From NCBI RefSeq assembly GCF_004331075.1, contig NZ_SJNX01000001.1, positions 521,810-585,809 on the forward strand: 64,000 nucleotides of DNA, read 5' to 3'. The translations under genes were made by a program, and so were the position numbers. This stretch comes from Acinetobacter brisouioides. GTDB taxonomy: Bacteria > Pseudomonadota > Gammaproteobacteria > Pseudomonadales > Moraxellaceae. The notes beneath the pieces are model-generated. The model had not been told where the DNA came from, did not search any database, and saw nothing but the letters and a program-made list of their open reading frames with translations. Shown piece after piece: positions 52,883 to 56,883 of the stretch (positions are counted from its first letter, which is position 1; each line of letters begins with the position of its first letter).

Positions 52883-53800
52883 ATGACATCTCATCGAGCC
52901 AAACAAAGTTTATTCAAAAAAATTACACGCGGCATGACTGTCGGCTCTGTGATTACAGGCAGCACATTTTTACATGGACCTCCTGTTTTAGCCTTGGGGC
53001 TCACCAAACTCTTTAAACAATCACGCAAGGTGGATGAGACCAATATCCAGATCACCAATAGCTGGCTAAGTGTAAACAACTGGCTGATTGATCATGTTTT
53101 GCCAAATACTGAGTGGGATATTCATATCGATGAGGATCTCGACTTGAACTTACAAGGGCGTTACCTGATGCTCTGTAATCATCAAAGTTGGGTCGATACG
53201 ACAGTTAATCAGTATTTCGGTTTAACCCGTATGCCATTAACGCGGTTTTTCACCAAATGGGAACTGATTTTTATTCCTTTTGTGGGACAAGCATTTAAAA
53301 TTTTGGGTTTCCCTATGATGAAACGTCATAGCAAATCTGAAATTGCTAAAAACCCAGAGCTAAAACATCGTGATATTTTAGAAGCGCGTAAATCTTGTGA
53401 ACAACTGCTCAGTCAACCTTTCACGTTGCTCAATTATGTCGAAGGTACACGTTTTACGCCTGAAAAACATGCTCAGCAAAAATCACCTTATCAAAATTTA
53501 CTCAAGCCTAAAGCTGGTGGTCTAGCATTAGCGCTGAATATTTTGGGAAATCAGGTTGATGCCTTGGTGGATATGACGATTGTCTATCCTGATGGTATTC
53601 CAGATTATAGTGATTTTTGGCTTGGTGAAGTGCCTCGTATTGCCATACATTTACGTAAAATTGAGATTCCAGCATGGGTTTTAGCTGGCAGCTATGAAGA
53701 TGATCGCGAATATAGATCCAAATTCCACAAGTGGCTAGCACAAATCTGGAAAGAAAAAGATCAGTTAATTAGTGACATTAAAGCCAAGTATTCCGCTTAA
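52883..53800 (+). CDS. PlsC-like acyltransferase (YihG-like)
   Basis: The 305-residue membrane-associated acyltransferase has the catalytic HX4D motif NHQSWVD (about 98-104), the glycerophosphate-binding motif YVEGTRFTPEKH (about 189-200) and a later PKAGGLALAL segment. The group containing E. coli YihG acylates lysophospholipids or forms phosphatidic acid. A following membrane-protein gene starts 16 nt after its stop, so the two are probably cotranscribed. Confidence 0.85.
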   Translation: MTSHRAKQSLFKKITRGMTVGSVITGSTFLHGPPVLALGLTKLFKQSRKVDETNIQITNSWLSVNNWLIDHVLPNTEWDIHIDEDLDLNLQGRYLMLCNHQSWVDTTVNQYFGLTRMPLTRFFTKWELIFIPFVGQAFKILGFPMMKRHSKSEIAKNPELKHRDILEARKSCEQLLSQPFTLLNYVEGTRFTPEKHAQQKSPYQNLLKPKAGGLALALNILGNQVDALVDMTIVYPDGIPDYSDFWLGEVPRIAIHLRKIEIPAWVLAGSYEDDREYRSKFHKWLAQIWKEKDQLISDIKAKYSA

Positions 53801-53816
53801 ATAAAGACGATGCATC

Positions 53817-54857
53817 ATGCAAAATTCAAAAAAAGTTCCGAGCTTCCAAGCGATTAACCACAACTCTTTGCAGTGGAAAATTTATTTGGGTTATGACATC
53901 TTCATGATGTTTATTATCGTCTTTAATTTATTTTGCCTTGGCACAAATGCAATCTTGATGAGTAACTTTGCCAATTGGTTCACTGAACATTTGCATATTA
54001 CTCATCTACTGAATTTTTATAAAAGTGCATTACATCCTTGGGTCAATAAAACAGAAGGCTGGTTTATTTGCTTTCTTGTGTCTGAATTCACAATACGCTG
54101 GGTTCTGGCAATTACGCAACGGCATCATCAACGCTGGTTTTTCTTTCCATTTATTCATTGGTATGAAGTTCTTGCCATTATTCCCATGTTACGCTTTTTG
54201 CGTTTGTTTCGCGTAGGGATTATCGCCTATCGTTTGCATGAATTGGGCTATGAAGTTATTCCTGAAGCATGGCTTAAGACTGCAAAATTTTATTATCAAG
54301 TGGTTATGGAAGAATTGTCGGATCGGGTTGTGATTACGGTGATTGACGGTATTCGTTATGAACTTGACACCAGTTCTACGCACAAGAAAATTATTCATGA
54401 GCTGGTGAACAGTCACCGCGAAATGTTTGCAAAAACGGTGGCTGATCTGCTGCGAGAAAATATTGCAACAGAACTGCAACGCCAACAACAAGATTTAGCA
54501 CAGCATGTTGGGAAAGTTGTTGAAAAAGCTGTAATAGATACACCAGAACTGCACCAGTTATTACGCTTATTTCCGATCATTGGTAGTCGTTTAGAAGAAC
54601 AGATTCAAAGTATAGGCAAACGTTTGGGTGAAAATATTACCCAAGGGCTGATTGAACCCTGGGCACAACCTCAAAGCCATACGCCCAATACCCCATATCA
54701 GCAAATTGCAGATAAAATTAGTGAGATTGATCTAAATAACGCACAACTTGAGCAATTGGTTGAATCTGCTGTTTATGAAAGTTTGGCTGCAATTCGCAAA
54801 CAGGTCAAAATCAAGCAATGGCAAAATATCTTGATCGCTGCCGATCAAAATAAATAA
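53817..54857 (+). CDS. Membrane protein with voltage-sensor-like S1-S4 region and no pore
   Basis: The 346-residue protein has four N-terminal hydrophobic segments that read like S1-S4 of a voltage-gated channel: S1 about 23-48; S2 about 81-99 with Glu90 and Arg94 (LVSEFTIRWVLAI); S3 about 107-123 (WYEVLAIIPM); and S4 about 124-140 with Arg126, Arg129, Arg132 and Arg139 (LRFLRLFRVGIIAYRL). No S5-pore-S6 follows. Instead there is a helical cytoplasmic domain of about 200 residues. Function is unknown; it is downstream of an acyltransferase gene. The voltage-sensor reading is my inference from residue pattern. Confidence 0.6.
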   Translation: MQNSKKVPSFQAINHNSLQWKIYLGYDIFMMFIIVFNLFCLGTNAILMSNFANWFTEHLHITHLLNFYKSALHPWVNKTEGWFICFLVSEFTIRWVLAITQRHHQRWFFFPFIHWYEVLAIIPMLRFLRLFRVGIIAYRLHELGYEVIPEAWLKTAKFYYQVVMEELSDRVVITVIDGIRYELDTSSTHKKIIHELVNSHREMFAKTVADLLRENIATELQRQQQDLAQHVGKVVEKAVIDTPELHQLLRLFPIIGSRLEEQIQSIGKRLGENITQGLIEPWAQPQSHTPNTPYQQIADKISEIDLNNAQLEQLVESAVYESLAAIRKQVKIKQWQNILIAADQNK

Positions 54858-55009: not shown

Positions 55010-55723
55010 ATGGCTGATATACGCATTACCGGAAGAATGGTTAATTTTACCCGATTAACCTTCGATACAAATGATCATGATGCTATTCGCCAACAACTTA
55101 CCCAAATGCTCGAAGACACTGGTTCTCACGGTGCAGCGGTCATTTTAGACAGTACAGTCGAACAAGAGCTAATCGAATTAATTCAAATACTGATTAGCCT
55201 CGATTTACAACCAATGGCCGTTATTGATGGGTTACTTGGTGATGAAGCGCGTAGTATCCAGTTCCCTGTTCTTCCTGCAGATCGTCCTTTACAAAGAATC
55301 AAGCCAACGCACGAACAAGTGATTGAACAAAAGGATGATAAAGATCAAAATAGCGACGACAGTAAACAAAAATCAAACGCTGTAAACCATGTGACTTCAT
55401 ATCATAATGAAATGTTGCGTACGGGTCAGTGCTTAATCCAAGAGCATGGCGATGTGATCTTAAATGCCAGTATGAATAGTGGTTCAGAAGTGATTGCTTC
55501 TGGCAATATTTATATTTATGGTACAACACAAGGGCGCGTCATTGCCGGTGCCAGCGGTGATTCAACAGCACGTATTTTTTGTCAGTGCTTAAATGCCGAA
55601 TTGGTCTCTATTGCGGGAACTTATTGTGTCGCAGACGACATTCCTGCACATGTTGCGAAAAAAGCGGTACACATTTATTTAAATGATGAGCATGAACTTG
55701 AGTTCGAAGCGCTAGAAATCTAA
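55010..55723 (+). CDS. minC: Septum-site inhibitor MinC
   Basis: MinC inhibits FtsZ polymerisation away from midcell. The 237-residue protein has the N-terminal FtsZ-binding domain (about 5-100), an Asp/Lys/Gln-rich linker (about 105-130) and the C-terminal beta-helix (about 135-235) with [15 protein letters not shown] and [20 protein letters not shown], the MinD-binding face. minD follows after 72 nt. Confidence 0.96.
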
Positions 55724-55795
55724 GGTATGATTCGTCTTACTTAATTATTGAACATTTTATTTTAATTGCAAATGACCATAACAGGAGTGGATTCG

Positions 55796-56608
55796 GTGGC
55801 CAAAATTGTTGTCGTAACATCAGGCAAAGGTGGTGTAGGTAAAACTACAACAAGCGCATCATTTGCAACAGGCTTAGCCTTACGTGGTCACAAAACTGTA
55901 GTCATCGATTTTGATGTCGGTTTACGTAACTTAGACCTTATTATGGGCTGTGAACGCCGTGTTGTTTATGACTTTGTTAATGTCATCAATCATGAAGCTC
56001 GTCTACAACAAGCATTAATTCGCGATAAAGACATTGAAAACCTTTATATTTTACCTGCATCACAGACTCGTGACAAAGATGCTCTTACCGATGATGGCGT
56101 TGAGCGCGTGATGAATGAACTTGCTCAGGAGTTTGACTATATTGTCTGTGACTCCCCTGCAGGTATTGAACGTGGTGCGATTTTGGCAATGTATCATGCC
56201 GATGAAGCCATTATTGTCACTAACCCAGAAATTTCATCAGTACGCGACTCTGACCGTATTATTGGCATGCTCGATAGCAAAACTAAAAAAGTTGAGCACA
56301 ACGAAGGTCGTATCCGTAAACACTTATGTATTACTCGCTTTAACCCTGAACGCGCTGATCGTCAGGAAATGCTGACGATTGATGATATTTCTAAAGATAT
56401 TTTGCGTATTCCAACGCTAGGCGTAATTCCTGAATGCCCAAGCGTATTACAAGCGTCCAACGAAGGTAAACCTGTCATTTTGTATACAGAATCGTATGCT
56501 GGGCAAGCTTATGATGATTTAGTTGCCCGCTTTCTTGGAGAAGATCGTCCGTATCGTCATATTACGGTAAAACCTAAAGGCTGGCTGGCACGTTTGTTTG
56601 GAGCATAA
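55796..56608 (+). CDS. minD: Septum-site ATPase MinD
   Basis: This 270-residue deviant Walker ATPase has SGKGGVGKTTTSA (about 10-22), the switch DFDVGLRNLDLIMGCERR, and a C-terminal amphipathic membrane-targeting helix (PKGWLARLFGA). The GTG at 55796 gives exactly the E. coli length and has AGGAG 8 nt upstream. The earlier in-frame ATG would add 10 residues with no signal. Confidence 0.97.
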   Translation: MAKIVVVTSGKGGVGKTTTSASFATGLALRGHKTVVIDFDVGLRNLDLIMGCERRVVYDFVNVINHEARLQQALIRDKDIENLYILPASQTRDKDALTDDGVERVMNELAQEFDYIVCDSPAGIERGAILAMYHADEAIIVTNPEISSVRDSDRIIGMLDSKTKKVEHNEGRIRKHLCITRFNPERADRQEMLTIDDISKDILRIPTLGVIPECPSVLQASNEGKPVILYTESYAGQAYDDLVARFLGEDRPYRHITVKPKGWLARLFGA

Positions 56609-56610
56609 TC

Positions 56611-56883
56611 ATGGCAGGATTTTGGAGCAAATTATTTGGTAGTGACGATAAAACCCCAAGTGCACAGATGGCAAAAGACCGTTTAAAGGTTATTGTTGCT
56701 TCTGAACAAGGTTTAGGTCGTCGTTTGAGCCAAGACAAAATTGATCAGATGAAAAAAGAGATTATGCAAGTGGTTAGCCGCTATGTTCGTGGTGTCGATG
56801 AACAGCATATCCAAATGCAAGTACGTTCAGAAGCCAACATTGAAATGCTTGAGATGAATATCAATTTACCTGAAGATCATTAA
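56611..56883 (+). CDS. minE: Topological specificity factor MinE
   Basis: The 90-residue protein has an N-terminal membrane-interacting segment (MAGFWSKLFG), the MinD-binding helix (AKDRLKVIVASEQG) and the dimerisation domain. It starts 2 nt after minD. Confidence 0.96.
   Translation: MAGFWSKLFGSDDKTPSAQMAKDRLKVIVASEQGLGRRLSQDKIDQMKKEIMQVVSRYVRGVDEQHIQMQVRSEANIEMLEMNINLPEDH

Follow-up and report, generated by a model that had tools for sequence, protein, structure and literature searches.

A gene of Acinetobacter encodes what is, with little doubt, a divergent S1–S4 voltage-sensor domain (VSD) in the N-terminal ~145 residues of its product, lacking a pore and continuing into a C-terminal domain that is predicted to be helical. 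The gene (positions 53817–54857, forward strand, ATG start, 346 amino acids) lies in the window, the 64,000-nucleotide stretch of DNA analyzed here, which comes from an Acinetobacter near A. brisouii (closest named record, A. brisouii CIP 110357; 98% protein identity). A first-pass annotation of the sequence had proposed that a pore-less S1–S4 domain, homologous to the VSDs of ion channels and fused to a helical domain of ~200 residues, occurs in bacteria, and our analysis supports this proposal. The sequence relationship further suggests a common origin of this VSD and the VSDs found in bacterial voltage-gated K+ channels.

Organization of the VSD Protein

The boundaries of S1 and S2 were taken from a structural model, described below, and agree with hydropathy peaks. 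S1 (residues ~24–48; 53886–53960, forward strand, as are all elements of the protein) contains D27 and has its peak at residues 28–46. The S1–S2 segment (residues 49–78; 53961–54050) is predicted to consist of a helix at residues 50–59 and the start of the long S2 helix (residues 62–100), and is probably located outside the membrane. The membrane part of S2 (residues ~79–101; 54051–54119; peak at 81–99) carries E80, F83, E90, R94, and W95. S3, as placed by the models and by alignment, is a short broken helix (residues ~110–122; 54144–54182) with the pattern HWYE...AII, including E117. P123 and S4 follow (residues ~123–142; 54183–54242), with R126, R129, R132, and R139 located by the models and by alignment with S4 of K+ channels. 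The residues singled out in the first-pass annotation (E90, R94, the AIIP stretch at 120–123, and the four S4 arginines) are all where it had placed them.

The rest of the protein (residues ~150–346; 54264–54854) is modeled as entirely helical and has no transmembrane peak. After S4, no 19-residue stretch has a Kyte-Doolittle mean above 0.86, and the protein has no match to an ion-channel family, in agreement with the earlier claim that the pore module is absent. The S5-P-S6 pore with selectivity filter that belongs to Ion_trans (PF00520) is thus missing, and the corresponding region is the predicted helical tail.

Relationship to Channel Voltage Sensors

Pfam, NCBIfam, and PHROGs, searched with the window protein or with 19 family members (an alignment hand-picked for spread), gave no match above a curated cut-off; the best match in PHROGs, which has no cut-offs, was at E 0.0077. 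Helical families such as SpoIVA_C, CNOT1 HEAT, Spo0A_C, and DUF445 appeared in scattered fashion, in one member each (Adeno_E3B in two), and were taken as chance matches. Sequence searches of the PDB returned nothing usable (best E 0.24 for the protein and 0.093 for the profile), and two peptide patterns found no relative in viral contigs. An Ion_trans profile search had been suggested as a check of the voltage-sensor assignment. In Pfam this came back empty for the window protein, with sub-threshold Ion_trans matches in five of the 19 members (best E 0.065), whereas comparison of profile with profile was positive. The S1–S4 part of the 19-member profile aligned in register across S1–S4 with a profile built from 32 homologues of K+ channels (probability 97.7, P 1.7e-12, score 82.6); 29 of these 32 fit the K+ filter pattern. 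Column reversal brought the score down to 22.1, and the highest score among 40 shuffles, made in blocks of 10 columns, was 29.7, so that homology to the S1–S4 of ion channels stands with both kinds of control.

A second comparison was made against 15 Ion_trans proteins; for the other six of 21 loci, phmmer found no similarity to the seed, and they were left out. The P value was 6.8e-7 for the whole 19-member profile and 1.5e-6 for its S1–S4 part (score 46.8), a result less clear of its controls, since one of 40 shuffles reached 36.9. A profile from Acinetobacter sequences only (34 rows) gave P 2.1e-4, over S1–S2 only. Using single sequences, 16 of 20 channels outscored the best decoy among membrane ORFs without a PF00520 match (18.7), the sixteenth by 0.1. 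The decoy set (38 proteins) itself held four PF00520 matches: L115, which was its top scorer (24.3), L117 and L119 (13.4 and 13.3), and L120, outside the top twelve.

In a search of 349 genomes, the family profile also matched two K+ channels with a TVGYGD filter, at per-genome E values of 6.2e-5 and 6.4e-4 and across S2–S4 alone. The best match is that to the profile of 32 channels, made up of bacterial 6-TM K+ channels with a short S3–S4 hairpin (L172, L175, L176, L173/L140) and related ones. The short-hairpin channels align in register with the VSD family over S2–S4, and L172, L175, and L176 share the pattern W-x-D-[LF]-x3-I-P-x4-L-R-W-x-R-L-x-R. The 6-TM channels carry S5–S6 and the TVGYGD filter (L140, L141, L172), whereas the VSD family has neither and has its helical tail instead.

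Shorter pore-less VSD proteins (260–261 amino acids) with a different tail were seen in L137 (1228–2013, reverse strand) and L167 (1465–2247, reverse strand). The L167 protein matches PF00520 at E 1.6e-5 and 24.6 bits, just under the 25-bit cut-off, and scores 33.6 bits with the family profile; its sister in L137 matches PF00520 only at E 0.37. To the eye, the residues following their VSDs look helical. A search with a shorter relative likewise reached TVGYGD K+ channels.

Predicted Structure

AlphaFold2, given 34 Acinetobacter sequences, produced two models, one of the whole protein with a mean pLDDT of 61 and one of residues 12–160, which span S1–S4, with a mean of 75. S1 is followed by a loop helix and a long S2; S3 is short and broken (residues 110–113 and 115–119), and after S4 there are helices to the end of the chain. 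Residues 13–146 of the full model were superimposed by VIA-align on the VSD of HCN1 (Z 7.4, rmsd 3.0, 104 residues aligned). Among five chains aligned to the S1–S4 model, NavAb gave Z 6.7 (rmsd 4.6, 96 residues) and Z 6.2 (rmsd 4.0, 101 residues), and the two other rows had Z values of 3.1 and 2.8. Z values of 6–7 fall in the range that the tool flags as a possibly common arrangement, and unrelated long-helix chains were placed on the tail with Z up to 7.1 and rmsd >20. Taken by themselves, the Z values would not prove a VSD fold; they agree with the sequence evidence. Foldseek's best matches to the two models were at E 1.0 and 5.3. Absence of a four-helix S1–S4 bundle from the predicted structure had been named as grounds against the sensor assignment, and here the outcome is partial: the models align to the HCN1 and NavAb VSDs, but S3 is short and broken, model confidence is moderate, and Foldseek is blank below E 1.

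Structural matches of the tail to chemoreceptors, SH3BP5, and an apolipoprotein had rmsd values of ~11–22 Å over long helices and were discarded.

C-terminal Helical Domain

The tail (residues ~150–346) has no match above cut-off in Pfam or NCBIfam. Its conserved features are EE[LIV]SDR (residues 165–170), P253, G256, and W335, with positions 165, 166, 253, 256, and 335 nearly invariant. The EE[LIV]SD motif occurs within about 25 residues of S4. One genome (G069) has the tail as a separate 185-amino acid protein (L203, 2351–2908, reverse strand), which matches profile positions 168–334 at 108 bits. The gene beside it has homologues in L043 and L047 (89 and 74.5 bits), where they lie upstream of the full version. 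The existence of this separate protein means that the VSD and the tail are separable modules. Comparison of the tail with DUF445 (PF04286) gave a probability of 18.7 and P 0.0013 without a decoy control, and one of the 19 members matched DUF445 at E 0.049. Weak matches to the tail also occur in two large proteins, one in L138/G401 (an N-terminal helical-looking stretch, E 5.9e-4) and one in G424 (E 8.1e-4).

Distribution and Conservation

The genus, family, and order of the genomes compared are our assignments, presumed in part from the GTDB taxonomy. On these assignments, all but one of the 37 genomes of the genus, its own included, have a match to the VSD protein (36 of 37), the exception being a genome that is 65% complete. 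Within the order, 55 of 244 genomes have a match (own included; 54 of 218 near-complete genomes); in G069, which is among the 55, the match is to the tail alone. When 349 genomes of the phylum were searched with the family profile, 17 had a match. Fourteen of these matches cover all or nearly all of the protein, and two of the fourteen come from a different order within the class; the remaining three are a shorter relative (G137) and the weak tail-only matches in large proteins (G401 and G424).

Purifying selection acts on the gene, with dN/dS of 0.04–0.07 against four relatives; dS is high for the two that are most distant (1.5 and 3.4). Across 93 aligned sequences, which include duplicates, 17 of the 346 positions are invariant, and R126, R129, and R132 are the only arginines among these.

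Seven records of a plasmid collection have a match. Two are labeled ‘preprotein translocase subunit SecA,’ one is labeled hypothetical, and four have no label; we found no support for the SecA name. L205 (CP040048.1, 400189–409229) comes from a 658-kb record labeled as an A. baumannii plasmid, and it holds rep (DNA helicase), the VSD-gene cluster, and minCDE. This record may be a mislabeled piece of chromosome.

Genomic Neighborhood

Upstream of the VSD gene, at 52883–53800 on the forward strand, is the PlsC-like ORF noted in the first-pass annotation. It belongs to the YihG family of 1-acylglycerol-3-phosphate acyltransferases in NCBIfam (305 bits against a cut-off of 260) and ends, as noted there, 16 nt before the VSD gene. 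Downstream are minC, minD, and minE (55010–56883, forward strand), named through annotated A. baumannii relatives. Promoter- and terminator-like sites around the VSD gene are no commoner than in shuffled sequence.

A survey of the neighborhood, which had been proposed as a check of the acyltransferase pairing, had a divided outcome. In all 70 loci of the Moraxellaceae (a redundant set), the VSD gene follows the acyltransferase gene and precedes minC, with both neighbors on its own strand; one of the acyltransferase matches is weak (19 bits, near the locus end). Elsewhere, none of 22 loci has a match to the acyltransferase, MinC, or MinD within about 1.5 kb on each side (less in L040 and L047); judged by sequence, the neighbors there look like exonuclease, SixA-like, GGDEF, and amidase genes. 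The pairing is confined to the Moraxellaceae and therefore cannot define the function of the VSD protein, and the suggestion of a ‘membrane-state sensor’ drawn from it is not supported as a general feature. In E. coli, MinCD is reported to cease oscillating when the electrochemical potential is lowered (PMC3793866). This dependence makes the link to Min of interest, local as it is to the Moraxellaceae.

Charge Network and S3–S4 Hairpin

Conservation within the VSD was assessed in a set of 101 distinct rows, the window protein included, with profile E ≤ 1e-20. The rows are distinct over their last 300 residues, and near-duplicates remain; the short relatives in L137 and L167 fall below the threshold. 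One row is the tail-only protein, leaving 100 VSD-bearing rows, and identity of family members to the window protein goes down to 20%. All 100 of these rows have R126, R129, and R132. Loss of arginines at three-residue spacing among homologues had been named as grounds for abandoning the sensor assignment; the spacing is kept throughout. R139, which is off the i+3 register, is Arg in 89 of 101 rows. Acidic residues occupy position 27 (Asp in 99 rows, Glu in 1), position 90, and position 117 in every one of the 100 rows, and position 80 in 93. R94 is Arg in 91 rows and Gly in 9. The E-x3-R spacing in S2 and the D/E-x5-P spacing in S3 are those of Kv1.2. Among features of the charge-transfer center, then, the S2 and S3 acids are constant; position 87, which we take to be the S2 aromatic on the basis of the Kv1.2 register, is Phe, Tyr, or Trp in 34 of 100 rows and Leu in 66.

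The S3–S4 hairpin is trimmed. From P123 to the first S4 arginine there are three residues in 66 of 100 rows and five in 34, compared with six (L172, L175, L176), eight (L173), and 10–17 (classical) in the K+ channels read. Hydropathy has only three strong peaks, with S3 and S4 sharing one (residues 118–136). Set against four transmembrane helices with an S3b–S4 paddle, the models align to VSDs and have a short S3 and no paddle. Because the hairpin is short and S3 and S4 share a single peak, the paddle appears to be missing, and few charges may cross the field; the three S4 charges are probably in the inner half of the membrane. The K+ channels of L172, L175, and L176, whose hairpin is likewise trimmed, could serve as natural tests of a minimal paddle.

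Proposed Voltage Transduction and Its Alternatives

The best explanation, in which we have middling confidence, is an inner-membrane protein whose VSD has a common origin with those of K+ channels and in which a helical cytoplasmic domain replaces S5–S6, working by S4-driven transduction. In such a mechanism, the S4 arginines would sit against the acids of S1–S3, and a change in membrane potential would shift or re-pair them. S4, which leads on to the EE[LIV]SD motif, would pass this movement to the helical domain, which in turn would act on some partner or membrane surface. The trimmed hairpin calls for caution, and the chance that the protein transduces voltage may be put a little below even. 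S4-driven transduction is favored at that strength; a scaffold that does not sense voltage is nearly as likely, and a proton leak or a silent channel subunit is less so.

The scaffold would be a VSD-derived anchor or assembly platform for the helical domain, with the arginines locked in structural salt bridges and giving no response to voltage. Such a role is in keeping with the trimmed hairpin and with the predominance of Leu at the S2 aromatic position. It is also in keeping with the tail of G069, which exists without a VSD, so that the VSD may be only an anchor. However, the arginine trio at strict i+3 spacing and the acidic positions 27, 90, and 117 rank with the best-conserved sites in the N-terminal domain across the 100 rows, with identity to the window protein falling as low as 20%, and an anchor would need no such network.

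A proton or cation leak through the VSD, Hv1-like and gated by voltage or pH, is improbable. A pore-less VSD with a helical C-terminus is the general layout of Hv1, and Asp occurs in seven of 100 rows at position 37, which may correspond to the S1 selectivity Asp of Hv1; yet this position is Asn in 92 rows and Ser in one. The S4 motif of Hv1 is RxWRxxR, and the family does not have it, residue 128 being Leu in 97 rows and Phe in 3, with Trp one place earlier (127) in 18. An extract of PMC10377628 also reports Hv channels to be absent from prokaryotes. Very improbable is a silent subunit, in which the VSD protein would join either the genome's single 6-TM K+ channel or a K+ channel pore encoded separately. 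In KCNH channels, VSD and pore need not be covalently connected for gating (PMC4389246), and the genome does have one full K+ channel, but it has no pore-only protein, and PF07885 finds only the 6-TM channel, on another contig (C8, the window being on C1).

If S4-driven transduction is correct, analogy suggests a non-channel form of bacterial voltage signaling with a layout like that of the voltage-sensing phosphatases (VSPs), in which membrane potential would move S4 and S4 would drive a cytoplasmic helical effector. In the Moraxellaceae, membrane potential might in this way be coupled to lipid supply or to placement of the division site, an idea that comes from the position of the gene between a phospholipid acyltransferase gene and minC in every locus seen. 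We put this forward tentatively.

Comparison with Known Systems and Significance

Pore-less VSDs occur in eukaryotes in VSPs and Hv1. In VSPs of the Ci-VSP type, the VSD is followed by a cytoplasmic effector and there is no pore; the VSD family has the same layout with a different effector, and is bacterial. With matches admitted as far as E 10, neither Pfam nor NCBIfam shows a phosphatase family, and a PTEN-like C-terminus was not found. Hv1 and TMEM266/HVRP1 resemble the family in having a pore-less VSD, but the family lacks RxWRxxR and mostly has Asn at the S1 Asp position. NavAb-type Na+ channels match the S1–S4 model in VSD fold (Z 6.2–6.7), whereas the VSD family has no pore and a shorter S3–S4.

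An extract of PMC13095418 describes TMEM266 and SLC9C1 as eukaryotic proteins whose VSDs are without a pore or serve something other than one; in SLC9C1, the sperm Na+/H+ exchanger, the VSD serves something other than a pore of its own. Unlike SLC9C1, the window protein has no transporter or cyclic-nucleotide domain that we could find. Sequence similarity to voltage sensors has been claimed for TolQ and MotA/PomA (PMC6768053, in extract), which belong to other, well-known complexes. Apart from that claim, we found no report of a pore-less bacterial VSD in the parts of the open-licence literature available to us, which is not proof of absence.

According to a 2023 review, all known prokaryotic VSDs carry a pore (PMC10377628), and set beside that account the VSD family is a pore-less exception. 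It is a conserved protein of Acinetobacter and relatives that Pfam has missed and that has been mislabeled. If it senses voltage, it would make the question of whether bacteria have a protein dedicated to reading membrane potential open to simple genetics.
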